Positions 3,239-59,505 of a DNA stretch of 63,065 nt are shown one piece after another. A model generated the notes under the pieces. The model was not told the DNA's origin and searched no databases. It was given only the letters and a program-made list of their open reading frames with translations. Made by a program: the position numbers and the translations under genes. Within the stretch, counting starts at the first letter, position 1. Every line of letters starts with the position of its first letter. The DNA is from Planoprotostelium fungivorum (taxonomy: Eukaryota; Evosea; Variosea; Cavosteliida; Cavosteliaceae), in NCBI GenBank assembly GCA_003024175.1, contig MDYQ01000167.1:1-63065 (forward strand). The letters run 5' to 3'.

Positions 3239-6200
3239 ATGAAGTTGATAGAGGTGTTAATTATCCTCTGCTGCTGCGCTGGTACATCTCTGGCAGCTGT
3301 ATCAGAAGATACGAAGGCGACTCTGTTAGAGTTTCATGCTGCGCTGGGGGGTCCTTGTGAGTTCTGTCGTCTATGTTATCATCTCTGATGTGTGTATAGA
3401 CTGGTATACTGTAACAGTATATAAGACAGCACCACCGTGGTCGAATGAGACAGACCCCTGCGGTTGGTTCGGAGTCAAGTGTGGAGGTTTCAATAACTCT
3501 GATGTGGTTGAGCTCTCTCTCCCCAACAACAACCTCACGGGTGATTTCGATAATGCATTACCACCGGCTGATGTGAAAGGTACTATTCCTCTCTCTTTCT
3601 ACGGAATCACCACCATCCAACACTTGGACCTGAATTCCAACTTCTTCACGGGCAACTTGTTGATCGATTTCGGTCGTATGACCCGTCTCAACTGGCTCAG
3701 CCTCGCCCAATATTTTGCTCCGGCAAACATCACGCTCATCTCTCTACCCCCCAGCATGCTCGATCTGAGTCTATATGGCCTCGCCATTCCCATTCCATCC
3801 GATCTGATTCGATCTATTCCTCTCATTCGACACTTGGAGCTTTCCAACAACCCTTTCGCCGCCGCTCTAGACTTTGACGTCCTCTCTCAGAGCATCTTCC
3901 TCACAGGGCTTCGACTCAATAATGTCGGACTCACTGGCACCATTCCCTCATGGATGCTGAAGAGGATGATTCTGTTAGACCTCGGTAACAATCGCATGAC
4001 ATTGGACTTTCAACCGGGCTGCAGAGTCCAAAATCTCGTGTTTGCAGGCAACCAAGATCGAGGTGATCATGTTGATGTGACGGTGTCTTCATCGTGCTGA
4101 TGGATGCAGGGCCCGTTCCGAATCTGTCCAACTGTCCGACTCTGACATCGGTGGATCTCAGCCGAAATCTTTACACCGGAAGTCTTGCATTACCATCCCC
4201 CTGTCTCTTACAGGTGACATCATCGTGATTCTCATCACGATCATCATCATCACAATCGCATCACCTTCATCATCATCACCACTATTACCACTGTTATCAT
4301 ACCATCATCATCATCATCATGATCACGCGCCTAATGACATCAACACATCATCGTTATCTCATCGAACGGCACACATCAACAAACAACAGTACTTGGATGC
4401 TTCCAGCAACCTGCTGACAAAGATGAACGACATATCTGGATGTACCGCCCTGAACTCGCTCATTCTCGGAAGTAATCAGATCTCATCACCCCTGCCCAAC
4501 GTCACAGGCATGACGAATCTAGGCTTTCTCTACCTCGGTAGCAATCAATTCTACGGTGAATTACTCTTCACACTTTCTATTCTCATTTGAAATCGAATGG
4601 ATCATCTCTGTCTGTAGAATGGTTCTGAATTGATTCGAGCCTTCATCATTTGAGCTATTTGGTAGATCGATATCGTACGATGAGAAGTGAAGATTAACGT
4701 CCAACAGGAACCGTTCCTGATATGTTCTACCACACACCTCTACTCTACATCGATCTCAGCACAAACTTTTTGGTTGGTCAACTGCCTCCCTCTCTCTTCT
4801 CCAACAGCAAGACGTTCAGCATCACGCTGAAGGGAAACACGTGAGACGTTCCACACCTTCACGATCGATTGACATCTAAAGCTTCTCGGGCAACTTACCA
4901 CCCCTCCTCACACCTTCTCTCATCACGTTGGACTTGTCTTACAACAATTTAACCGGGCCCGTCGTCAGCTTACCGGCTAATCTGCTGTATTTGTACTTGC
5001 AGTATAACGATTTCGAGGGAAGATTTCCCAACGTAACCACGGCACCGAACATGGCATCGATCACCATCAATAATAACGGATTCAGCGGTGAGAATGAGTG
5101 ATGAGGAGATGATGAGCTGAACGAAATAAGGTCCCCTGCCTGAAATTGGAGCCCAGTGTTCGATTTTCGATGGTTCTTACAATCAGGTGACGTTCAGATA
5201 AGGATTGACCTCTTGATGATTCATTTCGATTCCATTCTTCTGATGGTCTCTTAGTTCAGTGGACACATTCCCAAATCGTTTTACGAGAGTAAGACCCTCA
5301 ACTCACTCAATCTCAATCACAATCAATTGGGTGAGTCCAGTTCCATTCACAGACCGTCATACATCGAATCACACGTCGACGTGATGCCGGCGGGACACCT
5401 CGCGTTCCTCTTCTAAAGAAAACAGATGGAAGTCTGCCCACGTTCAACGGTGCCTCCATCTACTTCTTCTCTCTCAGCCACAATTTGTTCAGCGGACCAC
5501 TACCACAGGTTCTCTTTCCTTTCTCAATGCTTTCCATCTTGTCGTTAGATCTGAGCCACAACAATCTGTCCGGTACCCTGCAGGTGATTCCACATCGATG
5601 GTAACTGTTAAACGTCTCAGGCTTTCGACGTTGTATTGTACAACTTGCGTTACATCGATTTGTCTTACAATCGATTTAGCGGAGATCTGTTTGGCCCGAG
5701 ACGATACTTATTCAAGTGAGTGAATCACGATTCAATCAGACATCAGACGTCATACAATGCGAACGTGATGCATCCACGATGGATCGATTATTGAAAACTT
5801 CACTTTCAATTCGTTTCCATGAGCCATCTTAGTATGATGAAAATGATTTTCTCTCGTTTCATTCGCTGATGAAAAACTACACATTTAAGGAAAATTGACC
5901 CAAAACAGCGCAATCTATTATCAGAACCTATTGACCTTGGATCTATCTCACAATCTCTTCTCTACCTACATCTTCGGTTCGATCTTGCCTCCTTACGATT
6001 TCACTACGACCCTCCCGATCAGTCTGACTTACTTTGACTTGTCTTACAATAGTTTCTACGGCACTCCGAATTTGTTACAGAATCAATTGGCTTACACCAG
6101 CCTGCAGACAGTCATTCTCAGGTGAATCTTCATCTCTCACTCATTTCATCCTTCGCGAGAATGGAATGATATTGATGCGTGAGACAGTAACAATCAGCTG

Positions 6201-9200
6201 AGTGGTACGGCTCTCTCTACCTTGTTCTTTTTTCCATCGATTCAGGTGATTTCAACATCACATCACTGTCCACATCAACGCATCAACTCCCATCGTTTCA
6301 TCCTCTATATCATCTATCCATCTCGTCACGCGATGTATCTGTGTCGATGTGAGAGATTGAGAGGACGATCAGGAGATCGATCTGTCAAACAATCCCATCT
6401 CTGGTTCAATACCATCGGCCATAGGCTCTCTCACAGCCCTGACCACGTTGAATCTGAGCAGCACTCAACTGAGTGGTGGCATATCTGCCGTGGCTATGAG
6501 TCGGTTGAAGGCGATGCAGGTGAGGCACCATCATTCTATCTCATTTCCATCGATAGAATGATGAACCATTCAAAGTGAACGATCATATTATCATTTGATG
6601 AACGATATCAAATGAGAGAATAATTCAACACGATGAAACGATCGAATGAGATTCTGATTGAATGTACCATTAAATTTGACTTGTGATAGGTATTGGACTT
6701 GCACAACAACAGTCTTATCGCGGACGATCTCTCTTGGATCGGCGGTTTGACTCAATTGCAATTCGCAGACTTATCTCTCAACAACCTCACGGGTTCATTA
6801 CCTTCCGTCGATCTCTTGACTCAATTGAAATCGATCGATCTGGTGAGTCGATGCGAAACATTTCGAATTGAAACGAAATCAGTCGAACAACCGATTGAAC
6901 GGCAGCATCAGCACGTACTGCAACGTGAAATCTCTCAACGATTTCAGGTGAATCATCTTTACACGTGAGAATGAGAGCTGAAGAGAGAGATAGAGTGAGT
7001 TATAATCGATTGAACGGAGGCGTCTGCTCGTTCGTGGGAGATCTGACGACTCTTCATCTGGATCACAACGAGTTCACCGGGGATGCATCGTTCTTGTCTT
7101 CACTGACTTCGATCCAATCGGTCGACGTGTCCTCTAATCAATTGTCGAATCAGGTGTGTCCTTCGTGATGAACATCGCATCAAGATGCAATCAAGATGCA
7201 ACCAAGATGCATCTCATCATCTCATCATCACATCATCACATCACATCATCATCACATCATCACAGCACGATCTATCATTGATATCCTGTAGCTACCGAGT
7301 CTCAATCGATTGGGAAAACTCATCAAAGCCAATCTCAGCCGAAACTCTTTCGTCGGCACTACACCCAGCCTGACCGACCTCACCACGCTCGTTTCCATCG
7401 ATCTCAGTCACAATCGATTCAACGACACCGTACCTTACCTATCCCCATCCAACTCTCAAATCAAGTGAGTCACATCGACATCCTTCTTCGATTGATGTCG
7501 TCAGATACTTTGATGTCAGCGCGAACAACTTCACGTGGGCCAACCAATTTCAACTACCGGGAGAAAACATCACTTGTGATCTGTCTGGTGTGATGTATGA
7601 ATGCCCCATCAGCTATGATGCTCGATATTCCTGTGGCGCATCGTGTATGGCGAGGGACACATCGGCGGCTAACATCAGCATCCGAATCGCCGGTGACATC
7701 CAATCGTTCAATCAATCGATGTGAGTCGACCACATCGATGAGATAGACCGATGACCATCACATCAGGTTCATCCGAGTCATCGCGGATTCTCTCGGCGTG
7801 CGTGAAGTTCGATTTCGCATCGATCGATTGAGATCAGGATCCGTCATCGTCGATTTGACCGTCAACCCACCCACCACATCCAATCAGTGAGATAAAAAAA
7901 ATCGACGCCGGGAGCGGGAATTGAACCGTGGTAGGGACGGAGAAGGTTCAGCACAGACTCTCCTCTCTCAGATGAAGACATCAGCCTTTCAAAATTCTCT
8001 CGCATCACGTGATATCACCGTCCTACTCATCGCAAACAACATCCCAGACCCAACTTACAGCTCGACGTATTCCAACGACATCATCGATGCACCCACATCA
8101 AATCGAGCGAGCAACACGAACCTCATCATTGGAGTCGTCATCGGATGTGTCTCTCTCATCATCATCGCCATCATCGTGGTGGCAATCATCGCGATGAAGA
8201 GAAAGAGGGTGATGGGACATCAGCAGATCGTCATGATCGATATGTCATCGATGAACATCAACGATGTGAAGCAGAGTGTCATCCGGTACGAGGTGAGAGG
8301 GAAGAGTGTGGAATTGTATCTGATCAAGTGGTAGGAATTGGAGAGCATGGAGATGGTGGGAGTTTATTCTATTTCACACCTTTCTTCGTTCGATTGTCGT
8401 TGTTCATTCTGATTTACGCACTATACATTCATATTCACCGATAAAAAACGATTATAATTAGATCGACATCCATTTGAATCAAAATCACAAGACGATACAA
8501 ACATCTTCACCTCTTCTTCTTTTTCTGTTCTGACATTGTTAACAGATCGGTTCAGGAGCGTGAGTCCATACATCCCTCTTCTATTCTCCTCTGACACGAA
8601 CAGTTTCGGTATCGTCTTCTCTTCTCATTGGAGAGGCATCAAAGTTGCAGTGAAACAAGTCAAGGCCGAATACGTCGACGAGCACCAAGTGAGAGAATTT
8701 CTACACGAGGTGGCCGTCATGCAGAATCTGAGGCCTCATCCTTACGTCGTTCTCTTCATGGGAATCACCTTACCACCTTCTCCTCTGTCCATCGTGACGT
8801 GAGTCATCTTATTTCGAATGGACAACTTCGATATATTATCGTATGTAGATGAGTCGAATAACGATCCGTCAGCGAATATTGTGGGGGAGGCAGTCTATTG
8901 AGGTGAGTTCAATTCGAATGGATTTCAATTCGTTATTGGTTGATCGTGTGACAGTTACCTTCGAGCGAATCCTGATATATCGTCCGATGAGAAATTGAGG
9001 CTTTCATCGCAGATCGGTGAATAATCATTCATCTTCATGTTTTCATCCGAAATGTTGATTGTCATTCGATTGAAATCGATTCAGCACAAGGCATGCTGCA
9101 TCTTCACATGGAGAAGATCATTCATCGTGATCTCGCCGTACGCAACGTAAGTGTTAACACTGTTAAATAGTCCAGTACATATTGAAATGACATCAGATCT

Positions 9201-10048
9201 TATTGACCAACCACCTCGATGCAAAGGTGAGATTTGTTCATCTCAAACCTTCATTTCGAAATTTTATCGTTTCAAATACTGAAGAGTGTGAATCAGGTGG
9301 CTGATTTTGGTATGTCCAGACAGCAGGACATCGTGGATAACGTGCAGACGACATCTACGGCCATAGGACCCGTGAGTGAAAGATGCGAGAGATCGAAATG
9401 TTCTGAGAGAAGAAGGTGCGCTGGATGGCGCCAGAAGCGATGAGAGAGAGGAAGTATTCTAACAAGACAGATGGTGACCATCTCATCATCTCCATCATCA
9501 ACACGATCACACATCATCAACACGATCATCTACACGATCATCAACACCATCACAACTGATCACGTTCAGTCTTCTCCTTTGGCGTTCTTGTGTGGGAGAT
9601 TGAAACCAACCGAGAGCCATACGAAGGCATGGACAACCTTCTCGTTGCCATGGGTGTGATGAAAGACAACCTTCGATTAGAGGTTCCTCCCAACACCGAT
9701 CCTGTCTTGAAACATCTCATGGAACGTAAGTTTTATTTTATTTTGGTTTGTTTGATTTTGATACATCAAACTCCTCAATCTATCCCATCTTGCTTCATTT
9801 TCATTTGTTCTTTATTATTTTGTTCTACACATTGTTTCATCTATCTTATCCTCACTCATCACATAGGCTGTTGGCAAGAGCTACCAGACGACAGACCAAA
9901 TTTCAGAGAGATCTGCATGTTGTTGGGCAAGATTGATTCAGAGGGTAATGGTGCAATGAGGAACATTGGGTCGTTCTTGAACATGGAAGACACAGGAAGG
10001 AGTGAAACGTCGCAGTATGAGCCTCTGCAGATGGGAGGAGATCAATAA
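3239..10048 (+). CDS. LRR receptor kinase with an active, tyrosine-kinase-like domain (receptor A)
   Basis: The ATG at 3239 opens a hydrophobic signal peptide (MKLIEVLIILCCCAG). An LRRNT-like cap follows (WSNETDPCGWFGVKC, ~3440-3486), then many plant-type LRRs over ~3500-7470 split into small exons. A juxtamembrane region around 7660-7886 (RIAGDIQSFNQ...GSVIVDLTV) resembles SEA-like stalk modules. One membrane helix (LIIGVVIGCVSLIIIAIIVV) is at ~8125-8185. A 21-nt microexon (8335-8355) leads to the glycine loop IGSGAFGIV, itself split by an intron. Catalytic motifs are intact: VAVK lysine, HRDLAVRN, DFG in VADFGMS, and GPVRWMAPEA before a normal C-lobe (TDVFSFGVLVWEI). HRDLAxRN and PVRWMAPEA recall tyrosine kinases more than classical Ser/Thr kinases. 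The stop is at 10046-10048. Exact exon count is uncertain. Confidence 0.85.
7887..7934 (-). other. 48-nt intron resembling the 3' end of a tRNA gene
   Basis: The intron of receptor A between ...TTSNQ and DGEGSAQT is read here on its minus strand. It carries GGTTCAATTCC, a T-loop/B-box-like sequence, then CGCTCCCGGCG, shaped like an acceptor 3' strand, then a run of seven T, shaped like a Pol III terminator. No matching 5' half (D-arm/A-box or a GCCGGGA acceptor strand) lies upstream, and the T-stem pairs poorly, so it is not a complete tRNA gene. Splicing at 7887/7934 keeps the receptor frame open. Origin from a tRNA-derived insertion is an inference. Confidence 0.5.
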
Positions 10049-28392: not shown

Positions 28393-31326
28393 ATGGTTTC
28401 ATCATCTTTCATCTGGAAATTCTTCGTCTTCTCCTTCTATCTATCCACGCCAGCAGGATGTAACGACACGAAAGTGGAACCTCTCGTGGCCACGATGCAA
28501 GAGATATGGAAGACACTCGGAGGTGAGAGAAGTGAAGATGGTGTCATGAGTTGATGGTCGAACAGGATCAGCCGAGTTTTGGAGGGGGACCGACGTGAGT
28601 GAAGTCAATTTGATCCTTTCCAAACCATCGCACACCGATCCTCAGTCACATGATCATCACGTGGAATACCACCTGCATATTATCATCGTTATCTCCTGTC
28701 TCATCATCACAGTCATCGACATATCTTCAACGACGCATCACACTCGATCGATCATCTGACGATCGTGATTCCTCATCTTCCGTCAGGTGTGCGATCCGAC
28801 CAACTACATCGGTGTCACCTGCGACACTCTCCTCACCCACCCCACCTCCCTCCTCCTCTCGGGTCTGAGTTTGAACGGCTCACTATCCCCTTCCATCGGC
28901 ACCCTCCACCATCTCACTCGGATCGATCTATCCTCCAATCGACTCGGTGGAATCATACCGTACACCATCGGACACCTCACTGAACTGGAGAATCTCAAAC
29001 TCTCTCGAAATCGTCTCACTGGATGCATTCCTTCTACCTTCAGTGGACTCTTGTTACTTCAGAATGTCGATGTGTCGCACAATCGAATGGAGGGATCGCT
29101 CGCGTTGAACAATGATGATGATAAGGGAGAAGAACGGTCAGCGTACAAGAAGAAATCGAATTCTGTCAGGAGAGGGCTGTTGGGAAGCCTATTGAACATC
29201 ACCGTGCAACAAGCGGAGGTGGGAGGATTCGCTAGAGATCGTATGAATCGTCTTCCAGAATATTCTCAATGGTATCGTTGGTACTGGGGTTGATGTGAGG
29301 GAAATACGAGACTTGAAATTGATCGCTCTAGATCGTCAAGACTATTTCAGACGTTGCTCTCAGTTTATCTTCTAATGCAACATCCTTTGTATACAGTACA
29401 CCGAACGTGTCGATCAGTCTGCAGGCTTACAACCTAAGAAACATCAGTGGCCAGTATATCAAGACGAAATTGATGAATACCACTGTCACCGTGGCGATAC
29501 CCATCTCAGTGTTCAACACACCTCGAGGTAAAAGGGTTTAGGGTTTATCGACTCACTTGCACACAGTCAGCTTGTTACTTTCATCCGTATCATTCAACCC
29601 CTTCGTGTCGATGGACAATCAATCCATGTGAGTCGATCTCCTCTGACGTGTTGAGAGATCGATTGACATGGAGATAGATTCAGCCGTGTTATTGGTGTGG
29701 CTTTGTATTCAGAGGGAAGAGAGATAGAAGTCAAGGACGTAACAGACTCGATCAACATCACCATGGGCATCATCGATTCCATTCCGCCTGATCACCGTGA
29801 GATATCACTTCACATCGAGATTTTGATCAGTTATAAATAACCGTCGTGTTTCAGATGCAGTGTGTCAATACTGGAACGAATACTCTTCTCTCTGGTCGAG
29901 GGAGGGCTGCAACCTCGTTGTAGACGGCAATGTGACGATGTGTCAGACCAATCACCTCACGAACTTTTCCATCGGAATTCAACCCATTGTCTCACCATCC
30001 TCTAACCAAGCGGAAGTAAACGTTCAGATGGGAGGAGCGAGTGACAAGAAGAAGATGATCGTCATCGCATCTTGCGTGGCCGGCGGCCTCGTTCTCATTC
30101 TTGTCTCGTCTCTTCTTCTCTTTCGACTTCTGAGAGCTAGAGAAGTGAACAAAAGAGATCAGATGTTTGAACTCACGAACTTAAGGTCGATCTGAAAAGT
30201 TCTGAGGGAACTGCCGAAAAGAATGAAACGATTGAATGGAAGGAGAGAGTAAGCGGAGGAGGGAATGCTCAAGTGTGGAAAGCCACACGAAATGAGACGA
30301 TCACAGTGGCGATCAAGAGGAGAGAAGATGCGGGAATACGCTCCCTCGTACGAGAAGCGACTCGATTGAAGGTATGTGTGACATCGATTGTTCCGTGGTC
30401 TGAAGAGGGACAGACTATGCATCATCCGAACATCGTCATGTATCTCGCTCAGAATCTAACCGGTGAGATCTGAATCGAACGATTCATACGTTAAATCGAT
30501 GAACAGAAGGATGGATGATGATGGAATGGATGGAGGAAGGCAGCCTCTTCTCTTACGCTCGATCTCACCTTGTCTCTCCTTTGTTCTTTTCCATGTGATC
30601 CTCATGATTTCGTCATATCTCTCGTTCCCTCTCCATCTGTGACATCCTGACGATCTAATAGAGGAAGAGATGTGGCTCAAGGAATGTCTTACTTATCAGA
30701 ACAGAAGATCGTACATACTCAGCTCCACCCTCACCACGTGCGTATACACAGTACGTACTGTCATCATCATTTGATCTTCTGTTAGATTCTATTGAGAATT
30801 ACTGAGGGTTCGATCGTGGCCAAAATCACAAGTTTCAGTGAGTGCACAGAAGACGGAGCAAAATACGAGGGGACACCATCTGATCACACGGTGAATATTT
30901 CCCTCGTGATGATCATCACAAAGAGTTCTCAATCTTGATCCAGGCGCCTGAGGTGGTGAAGTTTGGTATACAGTATGTTCAATCTGATGTATGGAGTTTC
31001 GGTCTCATCTTACTCTTCATCGCCAGAGATGGACGAGAGACACACCAGGTGATCACGGTGCATTATCACAACCGTTCTGACTGTTTGTTCGACAGACACA
31101 GAGGAAAAGTGGAATAATGATCGCAGAAGAATGGGAAGCATCTGTGAAGGGAATGATCCACCACTGTACGAGAGAGGAGATAAGAGATCGACCTACGTTC
31201 AGTGACATCACAAAGAGGATGTCTCGAAGCGTCGTGAAACAGAAAGTAACAGAGAGAGTGATGGAAGGGAATGAGAGGGTTGACGATCCGTACGGACTGC
31301 ACGAAGTGATGGAAGATCATCGTTAA
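28393..31326 (+). CDS. LRR - GAIN/GPS - TM - pseudokinase receptor (receptor B)
   Basis: The ATG at 28393 begins a signal peptide (WKFFVFSFYLSTPAG). Exon 3 completes an LRRNT cap (VCDPTNYIGVTC), and about four LRRs follow (LSLSPSIGTLHHLTRIDLSS-like). A GAIN-like region begins at NITVQQAE and includes NILNGIVG and IVKTISDVALSL. The GPS motif is at 29863-29976: CQYWNE, LWSREGCN and CQTNHLTNFSIG; three of the four canonical cysteines are kept and the His-Leu-Thr cleavage site is intact (codons 29953-29961). A TM helix (MIVIASCVAGGLVLILVSSL) follows at ~30055. In the kinase-like domain the VAIK lysine is kept, HRD is HTQ (IVHTQLHPHH), DFG is SFS (AKITSFSE), and APE and DVWSFG are intact. It ends 44 bp from convergent receptor C. 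Confidence 0.88.
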
Positions 31327-31370
31327 AGGGTACATATCTATTCTGTAGTCTCATCTATTTCATTCGATCT

Positions 31371-34300
31371 TCATTCAAATCTGTATGGATCGTGCTCCTC
31401 CTCAGTCATATCTTCCATCTTCATCTCCATGTTTCTCCTTAGATCGTTCTTATCTCTCTCCCTCTCCGTTTGTCTCTTCATCTTTCTTGCTATCTCGGTG
31501 AATGTCGGTCTGTTGTTCATCTCTTCTTCCATGCAGTCTTGAATCATTCCCCTAACTGATGCTTCCCATTCTTCTTCAATCATCTCGCTCCGTCTCTTCA
31601 CACTCTTTCTCTGCATCAAAGTCAGGGAGAGAAGGTTATATGTGATCACCTCAGACATCTCTCTTCCATCTCTGGCGATGAACAGCAAGATGTTGCCGAA
31701 ACTCCACACATCGGACTGGACATACTGCACTCCATATTTGACCACTTCAGGTGCCTGCATCATATGGTCAGCACATTCTAGCGAGAGGAAATGTCGAAAT
31801 AAATTCACCGTGTGGTGAGATGGTTTTCTCTCCGATTTCATCCCCTCCTCAATACATTCGCCGAAGCTTGTGATTTTAGCTACGATCGAACCGTCCGCTC
31901 CGGATTGCAATAGAATCTATTGTCATGATAAATAAGGGAACAGTAGATGCAACTCACATGATGAGAATGAAGCTGAGTGTGCACGATCTTCTGTTCTGCC
32001 ACGTAAGACATTCCTTGTGCTACGTCTCTTCCACTGTCACGTGTCAGCCACTCAAAGACGTGAATGACATGGTATCACATGGATGAGAAGAGGGAGGAAA
32101 TGGAGTGATGCTGAGCATAAGAGAAGAGACTTCCTTTGTCCATCCATTCTATCATCAACCATCCCTCTGACGAAAGAGTCAGCCTTGGACGATTTCGTTC
32201 CATTATCTGCCAGAAGTCGATGTGACCACTCACCAGAAAGATTCTGTGCGAGATACATGACGATGTTTGGATGATGCATGGTCTATCTCTCTCATTAGCC
32301 AATGAACGGGTCAATGTTTTCATCGCACCTTGAGTCTAGTAGCTTCTGCTAGAAGAGCGCGGATGTTCTTTGAGCCCTTCTTCTTGATGGCCACTAAGGT
32401 CGTTTCGTTCTGGGTCGCTCTCCACACATCGGCCGCATCACCATGGCTCACTCTCTCTCTCCATTCAATCTTTCCGCTGCTCTCACTGTCTGCAACTTCC
32501 ATCAGAATGATTGAGCTTCTCAATTCTACATCCTGTCCTATCATCAGACCCGTCCGCATGGATGATTCACCTTGTTCTTCGATCGGCGATGATAGATGAA
32601 GAGAGATAAGACCAGGATGAGAAGGAGACCACCAGCTCCACAACATGCGATGATGATGATCATCTTCGTCTTGTCATCCCCTTGCGCTGAGGGAGCGTTC
32701 ACGGCTCGTTCGGTTGGAAGAACCACGGATGGTGAGATGACGGGCTGAATTCCAATGGAGAAGTTTGTGAGATGGCTCGTCTGACAGATCGTCACGTTGT
32801 CATCTACAATGAGGTTACAACCGTCTCTTGACCAGAGAGAAGAGGATTCGTTCCAGTACTGACACACTGCATCTGCTTTGTGTCAATGTCGTTCATTTCG
32901 ATGTGAACCTCTTCGGAGTTGGATAGAGGATCGAGTTCTCACAGTGATCGGGAGGAATGGCGCGGACGGATCCCATGGTGATGTTAATCAAGTCAGAGAT
33001 ACCTTTGACTTCGATCTCTCTTCCCTCGGCGTAAACATTCACTCCAATGACTCCACTGTATCTAGTAGTATCCGATCAGTACTCAGTTCCGTGAGAGTCC
33101 TTCACATCGACTGGTTGTTCACGCCACCGAAGGGATTGTACGAGATAGACGATAAGGACATGACGACTGTCTCCACCTCAGATTTTGAATGGCGATCATC
33201 GTTCACCTTTTTGCGTACCGAGTACCGATGCAGGTATGGCCACAGCGACAGTACTGTTTGTGATCTTGCTCTCTAAGCTCTGACTTCCGTTCTTATTTGT
33301 GTCGTATGTCTGTAGTTTAATGGAAACATCTCTCGTGTTGTACTCGAAAGACGCAGAAGTGTTACGCGAGAGAGCCAGCGACACGGCTGATATCGTCTTC
33401 ACGATCTGAGATCCTTCAGTCTCACTCTTCAGGCTTTACATCACCTCGATCTGTTCTCCGAGAACGCTGTTGAGTATATTCTGGAGGATGATTACGGATT
33501 GAACTCTCGTCATCTGCTCACCTCTGCCTGTTTCACAGATACGATGGTAATGTAATCGTAGAGAGTATCGACCGATGTAATGGTCTGTGATGTAGTGGTC
33601 TGTGATGTGGTAGTCTGTGATGTGGTAGTCTGTGATGTGGTAGTCTGTGATGTGGTAGCACTGATGGCGGTTGGACTAGTACTGATGGTGGATAAACTAG
33701 TTGAAGTTCCAACTGTCGAATTGCAGGGAAGAAAGCTCAGTTTGTTAAGACAGATGGAAGATACGTTCGTGGAAGCTCTCGATGAACAAGGAATTCTGTT
33801 GCCCAATAGATCGCAGTTGAATGTGACATTGACGTATCCAAAGGATGTGAAGAAGTTGTTGGCTAGATTCAGGTTACGGAGAGCTGGGAGGCTGGCGTTT
33901 CTGGCTGTCACCGTACCGTTCAGATGATTGTTCTGTAGGTAAAGGTCGAGTTGATGACCGGGAAGGTTGATGATCGAATCGGGTACAGGCCCTGGAGAAA
34001 GGTTGAGGACAAGATGATCAGTGAAATGGATCATCACCTTCCAGCTGATTATCATTCAATTGGAATAATTTGACTGTTTCGATACTCTTCATCGATGGAA
34101 TCTGTCCGGTCAATTGATTGAAGGATAGATCGAGGTCTTGGAGTAAGGGGAGGTTGGCGATGGACACTGGAATGGACCCGTTGAGTCGGTTGTTACCAAG
34201 ACGGATGAATTGGAGATACTGGATGTGGCTGACATCAGGGATCGGTCCGACTAGGAAATTATAACTCAAATCGAGGGTTATCATGGATGTGATGTTACTG

Positions 34301-35123
34301 ACGACGGATGGGATCTCTCCAGTGATGTTGTTGTTGTGAATATTGATGGTTGCGATGGATGTCAGGCCCACGATGGATGATGGAATGGATCCATTGAGAG
34401 CATTATAAGAGAGATCGAGGAATTGGAGGTTGGTGAGGTCACCGATAGTCGATGGGATCGAACCATCAAATTGATTGTTGAAGAAGCTGAGATATTGGAT
34501 GGATTTCCAGCCACCGATGGTATATGGAATGTTCCCACCCAGACTGCTCATGCTGAGGTCGATCGATAGGAGGGAAGTGAGGTTACCAATGGTGAGTGGA
34601 AGAGACCCGGTGAATAGGTTGATAGATAGATTGATCGTCGTGAGGTTGACGAGTTGACCGATGGATGGAGAGATACTTCCGTTGCACAGCATTCCCGAGA
34701 GATCGAGCTCAACTGGCCATGATTGGGATGGATCGCAGGTGACGCCCGTCCAAGTGCAGAACTGATAGATCGTGAGGAGTGGGCGATAGGGGATATCTTA
34801 TATTTCGGTGATGTGTGATGAGAGGAGACGCATGTGATTAATGTCGGATCACGGAGACGCTTAGCGTAACGTTAATGGACGGTGCATCAGATGTAGTGAT
34901 AGCATTGGACGTATTGAAAGAAAATATCGAAATTGTTTCACGTTGTTTCTGTTCCAATGCTGAGAAGGTACTGCATCGCTCATCAATACCAGTCAGTGAC
35001 TATCCTCTTCTCACCTCCCATCGTGCTCCATATCTCTGGCAACGTGGTCGAGAGGTCACCCTTACATCCTGTTACTGATAGAAAGAGGAGGAGAGTTTGA
35101 GGCAAAAACCACAAGCACCTCAT
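31371..35123 (-). CDS. LRR - GAIN/GPS - TM - pseudokinase receptor (receptor C)
   Basis: The start at 35123 gives a signal peptide MRCLWFLPQTLLLFLSVTG. The LRRNT cap (FCTWTGVTCDPSQ) is followed by about eight full plant-type LRRs (34018-34700, e.g. LTTINLSINLFTGSLPLTIG). A Cys-containing cap follows, then a T-T-S-Q repeat stalk at 33580-33657. The GAIN-like region has NILNSVLGEQIE and IVKTISAVSLALSRN, and the GPS is at ~32764-32864: CQYWNE, LWSRDGC, CQTSHLTNFSIG. A TM helix (MIIIIACCGAGGLLLILVLS) is next. The kinase-like domain keeps VAIKK and APEVVKYG, but HRD is HTQ (KIVHTQLH) and DFG is SFG (AKITSFGE). An alternative in-frame ATG lies at 35165. The C-tail is charged (NMEMKMEDMTEEEHDPYRFE). 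Confidence 0.9.
33580..33657. repeat. 15-bp tandem repeat encoding a TTSQT stalk (receptor C)
   Basis: Five imperfect copies of TCTGTGATGTGGTAG (plus strand) encode repeated Thr-Ser-Gln-Thr-Thr on the minus strand. The repeat sits between the last LRR cap and the GAIN region. Confidence 0.9.
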
Positions 35124-35406
35124 CTGTTGAGCTTCGCCAGCCGGTGAACCGAAATGAACGCCCACAGTCTTTTAAGTGGGAGAATTCTGCAGCCCCATTT
35201 CGCGAAACAGAGCCTGAGGCCCCGGGTATTGAGATGTAAGGTGGTACGGACCTTATACTGCGGGCTATTTATTAAATAATGCGCATTTATAAGCAGTTGT
35301 GACCAAAACGACGAAGGTCAGGACAGATGAAAGCGCTTTTTGTTCACATGATCGGTTTACCTCCTCTTTTCATGACACAATTCGTATACAACTATACAAT
35401 CTCTCA

Positions 35407-35487
35407 CATAGCAAATCATCTCAAATCATCTCAAATCATCTCAAACATCTCAAACATCTCAAATCATCTCAAATCATCTCAAATCGA
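35407..35487. repeat. Short tandem repeat CAAATCATCT
   Basis: About eight copies of a 10-mer (some shortened to CAAACATCT) between receptor C and the next gene. There are no spacers, so this is a microsatellite-like array and not a CRISPR. Confidence 0.9.
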
Positions 35488-35968
35488 TCCTTCATCTCTC
35501 ATCAAAACTGTCGATCGACACCTTAAATGACTGCAATAAATCAAACACCACATTCTCGTGAGCTCCACACTCTTATCTTTCCATCCCATCAAATGTTGTC
35601 GATTTCAGAATTTCAAAGGCAAAATTGTTTCGGCTGTGCTTTTCCGTCCACATCTTTCTTCTTCCTCACTCTCGATTAGACGTTTTGCTCATCCCTCCTG
35701 TGATAATGCTGGACGGAAAGGTGTATATCTCAGACAGATGTTCCAGCGGATCTCTCGCCAGCCTCGTACCACCGCTGGCGATCTTGATGCTCTGTACCTG
35801 TGAGCCCGCTGGCACCTGTGCAGACGAGAGGATGAGACGAAAGAGGTTGGTGATGGGCGATCATCTCACCTGCCCAGGTTCGTCACCGTTGCAACTTTTA
35901 ATCGTCTGAACTCTCCCGCGAAAATGAACATCTGTCTGGTATCAATGGTCTAATGGCCTACGCTGCTG

Positions 35969-36577
35969 ATGCTGCCATGGTTTGCTGTACTAAATGTGTT
36001 TCTTCGGTCGACGAAAGACAAACACCCGAATGCTGAACCTCAGGTGAGACGGTATGACGAACAACGTACAGAAAAGAACGACAGGAAACGACCCATGCCC
36101 TCCATTCTAACGGAGTCCAAAGAAGAGATCACTCTGAGTCTGGAAGATCTTCGTCCCAATGAATTCACATCTGAGAGGTATGCCAAATTATTTCTTTCGG
36201 AAGTCGAGGTCTATGGTCGTAGCGTTCGCATGTGAACGATGTTCTGATCAAGTTTCGCATGAAGTTTCTCCTTCAATCGTCCACTCCGGAAGCGAAAGTG
36301 CGGGAATGAATAGACCATCTCAGTGCAGAAAGGATCGCACTCCTTGAGTGAGATGGACGTACTGAAGGCGGAGAAAGATCTGATCGAGCAGAAGAACCTC
36401 AGACTCGAACAACAGAATCGTCTGAGTGAAGAGAGGAACAGCATCCTCCTCAAACAGATCGAACATCTAGAAACAACTCGATCGGGACATGTGGTTGCGC
36501 AAGTTGGTTGTGATGGTCAGTCATTACAAGAATTCAGCACATTCGTACAGGAGACCGAAAGGAACAATCAGAGTTAG
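35969..36577 (+). CDS. Hypothetical coiled-coil protein
   Basis: The region reads MPSILTESKEEITLSLEDLR and NEFTSERYAKLFLSEVEVYG in one exon, then VLIKFRMKFLLQSSTPEAK, and finally a clear coiled coil (MDVLKAEKDLIEQKNLRLEQ and NRLSEERNSILLKQIEHLE) ending at 36577. The joins between these pieces (about 36210-36355) are not resolved; an intron or frameshift is needed. The true start could be further 5' (ATGs at ~35952 and 35969). I do not recognise a family. Between 35124 and 35968 there is otherwise only the tandem repeat and short unsupported frames. Confidence 0.4.
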
Positions 36578-36922
36578 ACTCACAGTGATAGGCGTTGTTC
36601 GATAAATTATCTTCGTCTCATCGCTCCTTCACGTCCAGTGGAAAGATTCCATCATGATCAACTGACAACTTTTGAAGAGATGCGGACTCCATGTGTCTTA
36701 CGAGAACTCTTCTTGTCGTATGATGTAAAACTCCATCCCCTCCCTTAGCCACATCCTCCTCAAAGAAACCTCAACAACGCTCCACAGGCGCTTACTGCCA
36801 AATATGGAGTAATAATTTTTTCGTCCTACTCTCGCGTCATCCTTCGAGCGTTTTGACACTGTCCCTATAACAGACGACATTCCAGAACCAACGGCTACAC
36901 AGCACCACCTACAGCGGATGCG

Positions 36923-39900
36923 ATGAAGTCTCAGCTTCTCGTCTCTGTATTTTCTCTCCTGCTATTGATTCCCGCGGGGTGTTCCGCGTCTCTTGCGACA
37001 ACGATGAGAGGAATATGGTTACATTTGGGCGGTGAGAAGCACGTCAAAAATTGGAGATCTCATGAATATATAGGATCTTCTCAATACTGGAAGGGAAACG
37101 ATGTGAGTATTTTGTACTTCATCTCTCGGACCGATCGTCTCACCAATAGGCATGCATGTACGCGACTCTGCCTTAATCGAGACAAACAGGGCTACAATAA
37201 TAAGCTGATGATAATCAGGTCTGTGGGACCTCCTTTATCGGCGTCACCTGCGATAAAGCCGGAAAATGGCCTATCCAAATCGATCTCAGTAGTCAGAGCT
37301 TAACTGGAACTCTCTCTTCCAACATCAGTCTTCTCGTCAACCTCACCTTACTCTCCCTCAGCAACAATACCATCACTGGATCTATTCCAACCACAATCAC
37401 CCAGCTTACAAAACTGAACCGACTCGAATTGGACACCAATAGCTTCAGTGGAACCATTCCCTCAACCATTGGTCGACTCAAGAACCTCACTTACATGCAC
37501 CTTTACCAGAATCAACTCACTGGATCTTTACCATCGAGTATTGGTAATCTCACCAATCTCCGCTATCTTTTACTTCACAACAATCAGCTCAGTGGCAACC
37601 TCCCAAACGAATTGGGTAATCTCAGCTCTGTAGTGATGATCGCATTGTATCAGAATAAGTTCAATGGCTCCATCCCATTGTCGATCGGCAATTTGACCAA
37701 CCTTGAAAAGTTCCATGCGAGAACGAATAGTCTGTCAGGTGAGGACAGGATTCTATTCGTCGACCAATGATTAATGATAGGATCCGTTCCAACAGCAATC
37801 ATCAATCTGCCATCCCTGACATCGTTGATCTTACACAGCAATGCCCTCAGCGGCTCTGTGTCTGGAAGACGAACTCAACTCGTCAGTTTGAGTATTCTTC
37901 AACTCAACAACAATCGTTTCACATCTGTGGGTTACATCAGCGTCACAAGTCAATGCAATCTATTGGGAAACTTATTCCCTTGTCAACCAAAACTCAATGT
38001 ATCTTCCTTGTGTACAATCGACTATCTTCCGTGCACCAGCAGCTCTTCCAAACTGACCACAAGTTCTACCAGCTCTACGAGATCTACCAGCTCTACGAGA
38101 TCGACTAGCTCCACTACAAGCTCTGCTAGCTCTACAACAAGTTCTACCAGCTCCACAACAAGTTCTACTAGCTCTACGAGATCTACCAGCTCTACGAGAT
38201 CGACCAGCTCCACCACAAGTTCTACCAGCTCCACCACAAGTTCTGCCAGCTTCACGAGTTTCGACAACACTACGATGTCGTTGACTCCTGGGTCAACTAC
38301 TAAGTCTTCACACCCTTTCACAACTACTTCTACCAACGCACCAACAACATCTTCTTCCGCTCTCACTCATTCTACGATGGCATCTTCGACGGTAGATTCA
38401 TCCACAACGACTGCATCCACAACATCTACAAACGGGTCGACCAGTTCGTCAATCATCTCTACAACATACTCGTCCTCCATTGGTTCAACCAGTCCAGTTG
38501 TACTTACCATTGATGATCTCTATCACAACACAACGTTTGTGTCCGTGCAACAGGTCGAGGTGATAGTTGACGACGTACAAGACGATTGATCATATCCAGT
38601 ATCTTCTCAATAGCACAATGGTGAACGATGATGAAGTGATGATGGATCAGGGATGGATCATAGATGACAAATTATAGGACCACCTGGTGGTGAAGTGCAT
38701 ATCAGCTGTGTCTCTGGCCCTCTCTCGTAACGCCACATCATTCGAATATAACACGCCAGATGTGATGTTCAGCTTTCGTATATACAACGCAGACACAAAT
38801 GCAAGTCAGAGGATAGAAAATATCATAGTGAACAGCACTATTGCAGTGGTTCTACCGTTATCTGCAGCCGGTTCTCAGCGAGGTGAGTGGGATAATATGG
38901 AAGACAAGAAGATGACCTCCATAGTTGCAGTGTCACTGTCTTCTATATCGTACAATCCATTTACATCGATCAGCAACCAGTCTATGCGAGTAGTTCATTC
39001 AAAATCAATGTGGAAATGACTGTAAAATAGATATAGTCCAGTAATAGGGGTCAGTGTGTATGCAGAGGGCAGAGAGTTGAATGTCGATGGCGTCACGGAC
39101 TTGATTAACATCACCATGGGAACCATCTATGACATACCCCCTGGATATTGTGAGATATCATCGATACACCAATGGTAAACGAGAGAATGACATTTCATGT
39201 AGATGCAGTGTGTCAGTACTGGAACGAATCCTCTTCTCTCTGGTCAAGAAACGGCTGCAACCTCGTTGTAGACAACGATGTGGTGATTTGTCAGACGAGC
39301 CATCTCACAAACTTTTCCATTGGAATTCAACCAGTGAATCCACCTACAAATAACATCGCCAATGCACCAACAAACGTAGACAGCAACTGGAATCAGATGA
39401 TCATCATCAGCGCCTGTGTCATCAGTGGCCTCATTTTCGTCGTCATCTTGTCTCTTCTGGTGTATCATCGCCTATCGAATCGTCAGGTGAGCTGTGATGA
39501 AGATCATCGTATGAGCTGATACGATGCACAGAAGAAGATGGGAGACTTGGTCGTAGGCATGGATCTCTCTAAAGGAGAAGACTCCAAAGAAAAGATGGAG
39601 TGGATCACTAGACTGAACGAAGGGAGAAGGTCTGAAGTGTGGAAGGTGATATGCAATGAGACGACGACAGTGGTCGTCAAAAAGAGAGCTCTAGAGGATA
39701 TACGTTCTCTTCTGGCTGAGTCGACAAGGATGAAGGTGAAATTTATCTTTTCGTTGACTTTGCGATTGCTCAAGAATCAAACAGATGATGCATCATCCGA
39801 ACATTGTCATGTATCTTGCCCAAAATTTATCTCGTGAGTTATGCATCATGTTGTGGCTGAAGATGAAACAGAGGGATGGATGATGATGGAATGGATGGAC

Positions 39901-40650
39901 GAAGGCAGCCTCTCCTCTTACGCCCGCTCTCACCTTGTCTCTCCTCTGTTCTATTCCATGTAACTGTATTCCTCTATTCATCGTCTGACGAGAGCAGAGG
40001 CACAGATATAGCAAAGGGATTGTCTTACCTTGCAAAACTGGAGATCGTGCATACTCAGATCCATCCTCATCACGTGAGACTTGACTCTTTCTCATCCTTC
40101 TCATCAGTGATAGATTCTATTACAAATCGTAGAAGATTCTGTCGTAGCAAAAATCACAGGCTTCAGTGGATGTGTCGACAATGGAACAAAGTGCACCAGA
40201 AGGCCATCTCATCATACGGTAACAAGGAATCCGAATGACAGCGTATTGATCATGATACAGGCACCTGAAGTGGTCAAGTACGGTGTACAATATGTACAGT
40301 CTGATGTATGGAGCCTTGGCCTCATCTTACTCTTTATTGCCAGTGATGGAATGATACCCACCAAAGTGATGTCCATGACAATCGAATTTCCATCGACTAA
40401 ACAATAACAGGATTTAAATGTAAATGGCGTCAAGTTAGCATGGGATGTATCCGTTAAGGCATCGATCTACGACTGTATGGAAGAACATATCGATGATCGA
40501 CCCACGATCACCGAATTCTCGAAGAGAATGGCAAGACAGAATGAGAGCAAGATCACGATGAGGAAAAACAAAGAGATGGTGGAGGAACTCGAGACAAAGA
40601 TGAGAGGATTCGACGAAGGAAAGTCCCAAGAGCCTTATGGAACTGTTTGA
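36923..40650 (+). CDS. LRR - GAIN/GPS - TM - pseudokinase receptor (receptor D)
   Basis: Start 36923 gives the signal peptide MKSQLLVSVFSLLLLIPAG. The ectodomain has a cap (CGTSFIGVTCDKAG), about seven LRRs (37290-37740), and a long Ser/Thr stalk (38040-38480, units like TSSTRS and TTSSTSS). The GAIN-like part has YLLNSTMVNDDE and CISAVSLALSRNATSFEYNT. The GPS is at 39211-39318: CQYWNE, LWSRNGC, CQTSHLTNFSIG. A TM helix (MIIISACVISGLIFVVILSL) comes next. The kinase-like domain keeps a lysine (VVVKK) and APEVVKYGVQYV, but HRD is HTQ (IVHTQIHPHH) and DFG is GFS (AKITGFSG). The C-terminal stretch is a helix-rich tail (MRKNKEMVEELETKMRGFDE). Stop TGA at 40648-40650. Its paralogy to B and C covers the whole length. 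Confidence 0.9.
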
Positions 40651-45868: not shown

Positions 45869-48030
45869 ATGTCTACGATCACGAAGAAGGGCGTTCGCGT
45901 CGAATCTGATTCTTTCGGAAACATCGACTGCCCAGCCGACAAATATTGGGGTGCTCAGACTCAGAGGTGAAGAGAAGAGCGACGACGAATTGAATTGACG
46001 AATTTAGGTCGTTCACCAACTTTGAAATCGGAGGAGACAACGAGAGAATGCCTATTCCCGTCATTCATGCCATGGCCGTTCTGAAGAAGGCAGCTGCTGT
46101 CGTCAACATGACTTACGGTTTGGACCAGAAGGTCGGAAACGCCATCATCCAGGCGGCAGACGAAGTCGTCAGTGGTAAATACGACTCCCATTTTCCCTTG
46201 GTCATCTGGCAGACTGGTTCTGGAACTCAAACGAACATGAACGTCAACGAGGTGAAGACACAGTCGATCAACATCGTGTCGTCAGTGATTGACAAAGACG
46301 TAGGTCATCTCCAATCGTGCCATCGAGATCCTCGGTGGTGTTGTTGGAAGCAAGAAACCAGTCCACCCCAACGATCACGTCAACATGTCTCAATCCTCAA
46401 ACGACAGGTCATTCAACATCCCTCTCCAACAATCATTCAAGAGATCACACGAATCATCTCTCACCATCTCATTATACTGACCGACTACAGTTTCCCTACC
46501 GCGATGCACATCGCCGCCGTCGTCGAAGTCCAAAAGGTCCTCTTACCCGGCCTGAGATCTCTCCACAAGGCTCTCTTAGACAAACAGAAGGCCTTCTCTC
46601 ACATCATCAAGATCGGACGCACTCACCTTCAAGATGCCACTCCCCTCACTCTCGGACAAGAGTTCAGCGGCTACGCCACACAAGTGGAGTACGCCATCGA
46701 GAGGATCAACCAATCTCTGCCCAGAGTCCTCAAATTGGCTCAGGGTGGTACTGCCGTTGGAACGGTGAGACATGCATCTGTGAATCGTGTCGAACAGAGA
46801 AAGACTTTTGTTCATCATCATCATCTCTTCTCATCATCGTGGTCTCTGTCGTGCGAATGAAAGATCCTTTGTTTCATCGAAATCGTCTGGTTTGGTGGTG
46901 GATACTGAAGAGAGTAGGGACTCAACACTCGCGCCGGTTTCGACTCGAGAGTGGCCGCTGAGATCGCCAAGATCACCGGTCAACCATTCGAAACTGCTTC
47001 CAACAAGGTGAATTGATCATCACATCATCATCACATCACGATCACGTCAACACATCATGATCATGTCGACACATCACGTCACACATCGCTCACGTTCTAT
47101 CAGTTTGAAGCCTTGGCCGCTCACGATGCACTCGTCCAACTGAGTGGATCTCTGAACACGACCGCAGTGTCTCTCATGAAGGTGGCCAACGACATTCGTC
47201 TCTTGGGCTCCGGTCCACGCTGCGGTCTGGGAGAACTTCTCCTGCCCGAAAACGAGCCAGGAAGTTCCATCATGCCCGGTAAGGTCAACCCCACACAGTG
47301 CGAGTCTCTCACCATGGTCTGCTCTCAAGTCATTGGTAACCACACCACCGTATCCATCGCAGGATCCAATGGACATTTCGAGGTGTGCTCTTCTCCACTC
47401 TCTCGTTTCTTTGTATCTCCATTTGCATCTCATCATCTTCCTCTTACTTGTTGATATACTGTTATGTGCATCTCTTATGTCTTATCTTATGTGTCTTTAT
47501 CTATTATGTCTTCATCTTTATACATTATGTCTTCATCTTTATACATTATGTCCTCATCTTTATACATTATGTCCTCATCTCTTCATATTTTAATGTCAAT
47601 GCTGAATGGAAACAGTTGAACGTGTTCAAACCTGTCATCATTTCGAACGTCCTCCAGAGCATCCGTCTGTTGGGTGACGGAGCTGCCTCTTTCACAAAGA
47701 ACTGCGTCGTGGGCATCGAAGCCAACGAGAAGAAGATCACTCAGATCATGAACGAGTCCCTCATGCTCGTCACCGCATTGAACTCTCACATCGGTTACGA
47801 CAGTATCCTTTCCTTGAAGATGATCATGATGAAGATGATCATGATGACGATCGTATGAGTGTGATGTTCCTTGACACAAGATAGACGCAGCGAAGGCGGC
47901 GAAGAAGGCACACAAGGAGGGAACGAGCTTGAAGGAAGCAGCCGTGAGCCTGGGATTGCTGAACGAGAAGCAGTTCAACGAGTGGGTCAGACCCGAGAAG
48001 ATGATCTCTCCCACTCCATCTAAGCTGTAA
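45869..48030 (+). CDS. FH: Fumarate hydratase, class II
   Basis: The sequence starts [20 protein letters not shown] and shows the class II fumarase landmarks: WGAQTQR near the N-terminus, [28 protein letters not shown], the TH...QDATPL region ([17 protein letters not shown]), and the signature [15 protein letters not shown]. The C-terminal domain ends in [14 protein letters not shown]. It catalyses the reversible hydration of fumarate to malate. The start at 45869 gives no long mitochondrial presequence, so this form would be cytosolic unless an upstream exon exists. About nine exons. The last introns carry minisatellite sequence. The gene is convergent with the dehydrogenase at 48382. Confidence 0.95.
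47487..47577. repeat. 21-bp minisatellite in a fumarase intron
   Basis: Four near-identical copies of a 21-bp unit, ATGTC(T/C)TCATCTTTATACATT, sit within the intron that follows the ...AGSNGHFE exon. It is the most regular intronic tandem repeat in the window. Confidence 0.9.
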
Positions 48031-58117: not shown

Positions 58118-59505
58118 TTAGATACGTACGGTGGCGGTCAAGGACACCGACATGAGACGGTTGGAAGCATACTTCCTCTGGATGGCTGTATACTTGTAGC
58201 CAGCCGAGTTCTGAGCGAATGCGAGCTCATTCATTCTTCTGATGCAGGGCATGATGTCCTCCACAGAGTATCCCGTGTAGTGCTCGATGGTGTCGTTCCA
58301 GATGGGCTGACTGCCGTGGGGTCTCATCATGGCTCTGGCGATGTACGTGGCGGAGGCAGCAATCTCAGAGGGAAGGAAGTTGAGGAGTTCATAGTCCAAG
58401 ATGGTCAACTCGATGAGGTACTTTCCAAGTGTGTGAGCTCTCGAGTCAGAGTGGGCAGCCTTGGAGAATCTTCTGAGAAAGTGGATGGGAGAGGGGACGT
58501 TGAGGTTGAAGTCGAGGGTGATGAGGATGAGCTTCTCCATCTTCAAGAGCTCCTCGCGGGTGTAGGCGTTGGCGGTGAAGTAGATGAAATCGTCGACCTT
58601 GGGGGTGTAGATCTCTTCAAACTTGGACGCGATCAGCATGGCGGCGACTCCGACGAGCTGGAGGCGTGAACGAGCGACGGCCTTGTGAGAGAGGAAGCGA
58701 TCGATGATGTTGACCGAGAGGAAGAGGGTCTCGGACAGGAGCTGGAATTTGACGCAGACTTCAGCCATCCAGTCGACCATGATGGTGCGGTACTTGGCGC
58801 TCAGGTCCACTTGCTTCTCCATGTATGTCGTGTCCACGGGTGTGCCTTGCTCCTTCTCTTTAAAGTGAGCAAAGATGTCCTCCACGTATTCGACGCAAAA
58901 CTGAACGTCATCGGCATCGGCTTCGTCAATGTCCTCAATGTTCTTCAGGACCTGATAGAGGATGAGTCGAAGAGCGAATGAAGGGAGAGAGTCTCTACCT
59001 TCGATCCATTCGACTTGACGGGAGCGAGATCCTTCATCTCGGTGGAATCCTCGTCCATAGAATCGATGTCCATGGGCTCATTGTCGTCTTCCAGAGACAG
59101 ATCGTCCTCCGAGCGAGTCTTGGCCTCGTCCATCTCGTCCATCGAGTCTTCGTCGATGATCTCTTCGATTGGGGCGGCCTTGGGGGTAGGGACCTTGACG
59201 GGCTTGGTGGCGACAGGGAGTGCCGTTCTTCGTGGCTTCAGAGCACCATTAGAAGTCGAGATGGGTGCTGCCGTTGATCTTGTGGGGACATTTGACAATA
59301 CGGTTGTTGATCTCTGAGCAATGCTGGCAGCTGGCTTGAGAGCACCGGTAGGACGAGTAGCCTGAGCGTTGCTGGAGAGAGTGGCAAGAGCTACGCGGGA
59401 TTTCGTCTCGGTCACGGCAGACTTTCCTTTGATTGCATTCTCATCCAGAATTTGTGACTGGGATCTGGTTGTAACGCGGGGACGAGTGAAGGCGGTAGAA
59501 GACAT
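58118..59505 (-). CDS. CCNB: Cyclin B
   Basis: Two exons, with the single intron near 58955-59000. The second exon encodes both cyclin boxes: KYRTIMVDWMAEVCVKFQLL (the MRAILVDWL-type start), ETLFLSVNIIDRFLS, LQLVGVAAMLIASKFEEIY, then ILDYELLNFLPSEIAASATY. The first exon is a disordered N-terminus with a good destruction box, RVALATLSSN, which fits RxxLxx[LI]xxN for APC/C-dependent degradation; no KEN box is seen. It also has a run of Asp/Glu residues. Cyclin B activates Cdk1 for entry into mitosis. Putative E2F sites lie 131-202 bp upstream. Confidence 0.96.

Follow-up and report, generated by a model that had tools for sequence, protein, structure and literature searches.

GAIN self-cleavage has been studied together with seven-transmembrane (7TM) or multi-transmembrane partners in the literature matches listed for this analysis. 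The residues after the GPS cut form the last strand of the GAIN domain, and the Stachel peptide of adhesion G protein-coupled receptors (GPCRs) acts by binding to the 7TM domain. Excerpts of two papers describe polycystin-1 (PC1) as an 11-transmembrane protein with a GAIN domain (PMC9672506, PMC11458180), and, in the excerpt of a third, only Holozoa have GAIN linked to 7TM and non-holozoans carry GAIN and 7TM in separate genes (PMC12716839). The same excerpt reports 7TM-kinase fusions that are not linked to GAIN and does not name kinases as GAIN partners, and family-2 GPCRs of Amoebozoa appear without GAIN in an excerpt of PMC10445921. Here, we describe three genes of Planoprotostelium fungivorum (assembly GCA_003024175.1, contig MDYQ01000167.1; genome scanned, 36.9 Mb) in which a GPS is joined through one transmembrane (TM) segment to a kinase-like domain. 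The genes lie in a stretch of 63,065 nucleotides (nt), referred to as the window, and are assigned to a large family of at least 144 GPS-kinase sites with varied ectodomains. We read them as GAIN-gated single-pass adhesion receptors whose pseudo-tyrosine-kinase tail would act by allostery and docking, and we put the probability of this reading at roughly 0.55. Its parts read from the sequence are the order of domains, the intact HLT triad with its aromatic partner, the lost catalytic aspartates, the selection on the kinase part and a C-terminal Tyr motif.

Three receptor genes in the window

An earlier, sequence-only reading had proposed three paralogous receptors with leucine-rich repeats (LRRs), a GPS, one TM helix and a kinase-like domain between positions 28393 and 40650. 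This is borne out, and both limits are the exact outer ends of the spliced models. The models were obtained by hand splicing on GT-AG borders with frames checked by script, and each is open and in frame from ATG to stop. Their features are as follows, with the basis of each in brackets.

Gene 1, 28393-31326, forward strand: 15 exons, 710 amino acids; signal-peptide-like start, few LRRs, GAIN-like region, GPS, TM and predicted pseudokinase (in-frame splice model, Pfam).
Gene 1 exon 3, 28787-29218, forward strand: LRR region, the 3' part being the first piece of the GAIN-like region (Pfam LRR_8, LRR_1).
Gene 1 GAIN-B-like region before the GPS, 29259-29796, forward strand: exons 29259-29294, 29332-29527, 29567-29627 and 29678-29796 (profile match to adhesion GPCR GAIN with the GPS included; weak without the GPS).
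Gene 1 GPS and TM exon, 29855-30144, forward strand: GPS match 29860-29973; HLT at residues 368-370 (PF01825, hydropathy).
Gene 1 predicted pseudokinase and tail, 30186-31326, forward strand: VAIK kept, HTQ for HRD, SFS for DFG, APE kept; DPYG tail with the Tyr codon at about 31291-31293 (PF07714 E 9.5e-29, alignment columns, tail reading).
Gene 2, 31371-35123, reverse strand: 16 exons, 972 amino acids; same order of parts as gene 1, with more LRRs and a Thr-rich linker (in-frame splice model, Pfam).
Gene 2 GPS and TM exon, 32571-32872, reverse strand: GPS match 32754-32867 (PF01825, hydropathy).
Gene 2 predicted pseudokinase and tail, 31371-32532, reverse strand: VAIK, HTQ, SFG; DPYR tail with the Tyr codon at about 31383-31385 (PF07714 E 1.4e-29; best solved relative HCK, E 8.1e-23).
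Gene 3, 36923-40650, forward strand: 16 exons, 997 amino acids; same order of parts as gene 1, with a long Ser/Thr-rich linker and one GC-AG intron at 38986-39030 (in-frame splice model, Pfam).
Gene 3 GPS and TM exon, 39203-39486, forward strand: GPS match 39208-39321 (PF01825, hydropathy).
Gene 3 predicted pseudokinase and tail, 39532-40650, forward strand: VVVK, HTQ, GFS; EPYG tail with the Tyr codon at about 40636-40638 (PF07714 E 8.7e-25, alignment columns, tail reading).

In profile searches of the spliced proteins, the Pfam GPS family (PF01825; E 2.6e-9, 3e-9 and 1.6e-8 in genes 1, 2 and 3), PK_Tyr_Ser-Thr (PF07714, E values as listed) and LRR families all exceed their cut-offs in each protein. 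Hydropathy places a single strong hydrophobic segment between GPS and kinase in each, while the signal peptides were judged by eye, the hydropathy threshold being reached only in gene 3. From the GAIN region onward, exons of 61, 119, 49, 88, 76 and 105 nt recur in the three genes with agreeing intron phases, and the gene 1 junctions from the GPS onward were recovered by a spliced DNA-to-protein-profile aligner (its profile seeded with the same three proteins). The order LRR-GPS-TM-kinase, which the sequence-only reading could not place in any described family, is not found among the open-access literature matches listed, none of which describes a GAIN/GPS receptor kinase by title or abstract start.

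The region of about 190 residues that ends in the GPS likely adopts a GAIN-B fold. A profile was built from 18 such regions, namely the three window genes and 15 of 26 modelled loci, the other 11 being excluded by eye because they were short or continued into Ser/Thr-rich or doubtful stretches. At E <= 10 the profile with the GPS recovers 24 distinct PDB sequences, namely 23 adhesion GPCRs and one other. Its longer alignments span most of GAIN-B, and ADGRG1 reaches E 3.5e-13. Scored against three adhesion GPCR chains, the whole region reaches 51-54 bits, compared with 27-32 for the GPS by itself and 8-10 for the pre-GPS part by itself. The last value lies near the top of 887 scored shuffles (best shuffle 11.2), and the pre-GPS part adds about 20 bits when it stands alongside the GPS. 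Aligned with a profile of the three chains, the pre-GPS parts are in register, with an hhalign E of 0.0027 but a probability of only 11%. A GAIN-like region had been proposed for each protein; the Pfam GAIN family (PF16489) has no match at E <= 1 in the three window proteins nor in any of the 18 GAIN regions scanned.

The cleavage triad HLT is present in genes 1-3 and kept in 149 of 150 GPS rows genome-wide, a count biased upward by locating the sites with a model that contains HLT. The residues after the cut are mostly TNF (N at +2 in 120/140 rows, F at +3 in 140/140), and 144 of 150 rows have an aromatic residue, Tyr, Trp or Phe, just ahead of the first GPS Trp. By its placement, we take this aromatic position to be that of Phe803 of ADGRL1. 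Replacing Phe803 by Tyr or Trp leaves the full-length receptor fully cleaved, as stated in an excerpt of PMC13062082, and tethering to the first TM permits cleavage according to one of PMC12488864.

A genome-wide family with degenerate kinase-like domains

In the genome, PF01825 scored 150 of 176 candidates, all above cut-off, and each of the 147 non-window sites was read together with its downstream flank over about 1.5 kb (less in four cases, at contig ends). A kinase-like domain follows the GPS at 144 of the 150 scored sites (134/140, 7/7 and the three window genes), so the pairing of GPS and kinase is not due to chance, and the idea of three isolated paralogs is rejected. In spliced-profile controls, reversed strands scored at most 18 and other segments of the window at most 45; the only window stretches outside genes 1-3 scoring above 22 were those of a separate LRR kinase gene (about 3330-10000). 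The figure of 144 refers to sites, which need not all be separate genes: nearly identical rows from different contigs (L011/L012, L023/L024, L106/L107, L137/L142), maybe alleles or assembly copies, were kept in the counts, as were badly aligned rows such as L097 and L133. Of the 150 GPS sites, 59 have a neighbouring site at 10 kb or less, against a random mean of 11 (contigs ignored), as expected for a repertoire growing through local duplication. The sites lacking a kinase-like domain are L003, which is cut by a contig end, and L052, L053, L074, L081 and L102, where none shows in the stretch read. These five are possibly truncated forms or decoys, and in L052 and L053 a new LRR reading appears downstream of the GPS and TM. 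No relative turned up when contigs of viruses and prokaryotes were scanned with a single peptide pattern taken from the GAIN profile.

The kinase-fold domains of the window proteins are pseudokinases by sequence. All three keep the Lys and the APE motif, and all three lack the HRD and DFG aspartates, with HTQ in place of HRD and SFS, SFG or GFS in place of DFG. A kinase fold after one TM had been predicted to stand in for the 7TM part, and it does, but with the catalytic aspartates gone. Across all 150 rows, the HRD-Asp is retained in 12 of 140 readable rows and the DFG-Asp in 29 of 138, both aspartates being lost in 103/138 and at least one in 132/138; active kinases as a family-wide reading are rejected, the catalytic motifs being lost. 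Six control kinases of the same genome show D/D in the HRD and DFG columns in five cases. The sixth, a kinase-like open reading frame (ORF; L150, G000:C27:45498-46379), is itself degenerate, its catalytic columns showing HQR and NFG. Of 131 readable rows (set of 140), 104 have the VAIK Lys, a soft count given that the column holds K in only two of the six controls. Lys and DFG-Asp occur without HRD-Asp in 8 rows, and Lys and HRD-Asp without DFG-Asp in 6; the catalytic-loop Asn is retained in 25 of 130 readable rows, 93 having Lys or His there.

Lys, HRD-Asp and DFG-Asp are all retained in 4 of 138 rows (L096, L098, L129, L145), while the identical L023 and L024, which count among the 12 with HRD-Asp, have neither the Lys nor the HRD context. 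In a rough FastTree tree with long branches, used only to place these members, 10 of the 12 fall within one 22-row group, 8 of them in its 15-row part. An active tyrosine-kinase ancestor of the family is plausible because the HRD-Asp members group together, several rows of the 15-row part carrying an animal-like AARNVL signature. For the gene 2 kinase domain, the closest solved relatives among the 60 PDB matches listed belong to the Src family of tyrosine kinases (HCK, E 8.1e-23). One site, L145 (G000:C109, with L181), retains Lys, HTD-AARN and DFG after GPS and TM, and its 140-residue piece has JAK, EGFR, PTK6, ABL and Src as best solved matches. It is tyrosine-kinase-like and a candidate active GAIN receptor tyrosine kinase.

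The kinase domain, dead by its sequence, is under purifying selection. Among the window genes, dN/dS of the kinase part is 0.16, 0.18 and 0.25 (dS above 1, partly saturated). Close pairs listed with at least 180 codons and 70% identity range from 0.15 to 0.52. The median over 229 pairs is 0.37 with 13 pairs at 1 or above, two of these being listed, with 61 and 78 codons and 15-21% identity. Pseudogenes are rejected, the frames being intact in the three window genes and dN/dS well below 1 in close pairs.

As in adhesion GPCRs, the intracellular module is combined with different outer parts. Twenty-six upstream stretches were read, and 20 of these were tested against Pfam with one ORF each, giving LRRs in 8, TIG in 2, Chlam_PMP repeats in 1 and none in 9. 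Among the other six, L155, L156 and L159 are LRR-like in appearance and L162, L175 and L177 are low-complexity. The ORF with Chlam_PMP repeats, a repeat named after chlamydial outer membrane proteins, lies at 1118-2398 of L171 (G000:C47), upstream of the GPS-pseudokinase site L055 (E 1.3e-22).

Many members end in a tyrosine-bearing tail. Tails were counted only where the alignment reached the kinase end and the fragment held a stop (93 of 117 rows, from the 150), and they were dereplicated to 81. Of these, 69 have a Tyr among their final 12 residues, where the Tyr content of the remaining sequence predicts 25.6; position -2 from it is D, N or E in 58/70, and the next residue is most often G or S (29/70). 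Of the 81 tails, 34 carry the motif [DEN]x(0-2)Y[GSAVE]x?[VILMF] (shuffle mean 5.7, maximum 17) and 22 the stricter Yxx[VILMF] (shuffle mean 7.1, maximum 16), although the nominal p value is overstated, the motif having been picked after inspection and the tails being related by descent. Typical ends are DPYSQIQM, DAYGTIHV, DSYSVLNV, DTYGTVDL and GNVYVEQ, and those of the window are DPYGLHEVMEDHR, DPYRFE and EPYGTV. In seven members followed further, six tyrosine-kinase-like ones and L098, such an end was found in L088, L092, L096 and L117, not in L098 and L145, and ambiguously in L129. SH2 exon matches number 79 of 93 candidates in the genome, and we infer that SH2 proteins may dock on the tail tyrosine. 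The motif could possibly also serve as a trafficking signal or a PDZ-like end.

Candidate mechanism and rival explanations

As GAIN-gated receptors, the proteins would be cut at Leu|Thr in the endoplasmic reticulum and would reach the cell surface as two held-together parts. A ligand or a pulling force on the varied ectodomain (LRR, TIG or others) might then loosen or remove it, upon which the membrane part would cluster or pair, with the pseudokinase as an allosteric partner or scaffold. It could be speculated that an active kinase, perhaps a motif-intact member of the family, phosphorylates the tail tyrosine and so recruits SH2 proteins. More broadly, and more tentatively, the family may represent a new receptor class of more than 100 self-cleaving, mechanically or ligand-gated receptors that arose from a GAIN-bearing tyrosine kinase, with catalysis mostly lost, the dead domain kept as an allosteric switch and the Tyr tail read by SH2 proteins. 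The receptor repertoire may perhaps be used for prey or kin recognition.

Several points weigh against GAIN gating with docking on the tail. PF16489 has no match and the pre-GPS part alone has no significant PDB match; the upward bias of the HLT count, the soft Lys column and the overstated tail statistics bear on it as well. The SH2 matches are exon pieces without a tie to the receptor tails. At five of the sites, the 1.5 kb read shows GPS and TM and no kinase. The excerpt of PMC13062082 adds that purified Tyr and Trp variants of Phe803 cleave slowly, and that some HLS/HLT receptors are hardly or not cut in the cells used, the triad alone being no guarantee. The evidence in PMC12488864 cuts both ways: the TM tether permits cleavage, yet the full 7TM enhances it.

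The five sites without a kinase in the stretch read would suit cut, shed or decoy adhesion proteins, whose ectodomain is released for adhesion or capture and whose dead kinase is a mere anchor or partner sink. While the loss of at least one catalytic Asp in nearly all readable rows, the Ser/Thr-rich linkers and the varied ectodomains also speak for such proteins, a mere anchor needs neither purifying selection on the kinase part nor a tail motif kept across subfamilies, and we regard this explanation as unlikely. Some pseudokinases phosphorylate by an unorthodox route, and the frequent VAIK Lys (in its soft column) and the 8 and 6 rows with Lys and a single Asp would leave room for the domain to do so here. 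The loss of both aspartates in 103 of 138 rows and the replacement of the catalytic-loop Asn, mostly by Lys or His, argue the other way and make such catalysis quite improbable.

The tethered peptide put forward in the sequence-only reading, starting at the Thr, would act as an agonist on the receptor's own stalk or on a co-receptor, and draws on the TNF that follows the cut in most rows. These residues double as the last GAIN strand, so that being conserved is no specific sign of an agonist, and each of the three proteins has one hydrophobic segment after the GPS and no 7TM. With the 7TM target of the Stachel peptide absent here, the idea is weakened and we consider it very improbable. Release of the ectodomain by force or ligand, with docking on the dead kinase and C-terminal Tyr, would fit the anatomy better than a tethered peptide. 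That GPS and kinase exons were joined in error from neighbouring genes is hardly conceivable: the splice models come from genomic DNA, but GPS and TM share an exon, the next intron is 38-45 nt with frame and phase kept in all three genes, and the same order recurs at 144 of 150 sites.

If GAIN-gated signalling through a pseudokinase is true, GAIN has been put to use in gating a receptor with an output of quite another kind, and it becomes testable whether GAIN cleavage is useful without a 7TM for the Stachel peptide. The very large single-genome set of receptor pseudokinases, with few motif-keeping relatives, would suit the study of catalysis lost with signalling kept. Under the broader receptor-class reading, adhesion-GPCR logic would be coupled to phosphotyrosine signalling in a single-celled organism.

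Neighbouring genes and described receptor systems

Outside the three receptor genes, the forward strand from 3330 to about 10000 holds another gene. It encodes LRRs, a TM helix and a kinase in which VAVK, HRDLAVRN and ADFG are intact. None of the 150 GPS matches falls in it, and it looks like an LRR receptor kinase without GAIN, predicted to be active. Pfam assigns neighbouring ORFs to Amidase (1397-2143, reverse strand), Lyase_1 (45994-46857, forward strand) and cyclin N and C domains (58121-59077, reverse strand).

Among described systems, polycystin-1 and PKD1-like proteins have GPS/GAIN ahead of the membrane part, whereas the window receptors are single-pass with a kinase fold. Polycystin relatives are rejected: none of seven PKD_channel matches in the genome falls at any of the 150 GPS sites. 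Receptor tyrosine kinases share the single pass, the tyrosine-kinase-type domain and a possible tyrosine docking tail, and differ from the window receptors, which have a GAIN/GPS module, LRR, TIG or PMP ectodomains and family-wide loss of the catalytic Asp. Pseudokinases among receptor tyrosine kinases include ErbB3, ROR, RYK and PTK7. Single-pass tyrosine kinases of Amoebozoa, seven with a TM in Acanthamoeba (PMC4053784) and three in Physarum (PMC4758236) according to the main texts, form far smaller sets, and the word GPS does not occur in those texts. The present genome is itself probably amoebozoan by its actin, for which the top solved matches are the Acanthamoeba and Dictyostelium actin chains 4efh, 3chw and 1nlv.

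LRR receptor-like kinases of plants and oomycetes, some of them pseudokinases, have the same LRR ectodomain, single TM and kinase fold, whereas the nearest solved kinases of the gene 2 domain are animal tyrosine kinases (among the 60 PDB matches listed). To our knowledge, GAIN/GPS is not known in these plant and oomycete receptors. PMC11259431 deals with allosteric signalling by EFR, as its excerpt indicates.

Compared with adhesion GPCRs (ADGR, class B2), the window receptors have one TM and a predicted pseudokinase instead of the 7TM domain and do not match PF16489, and they share with them a GAIN-B-like region with GPS, the HLT triad and varied adhesive ectodomains.

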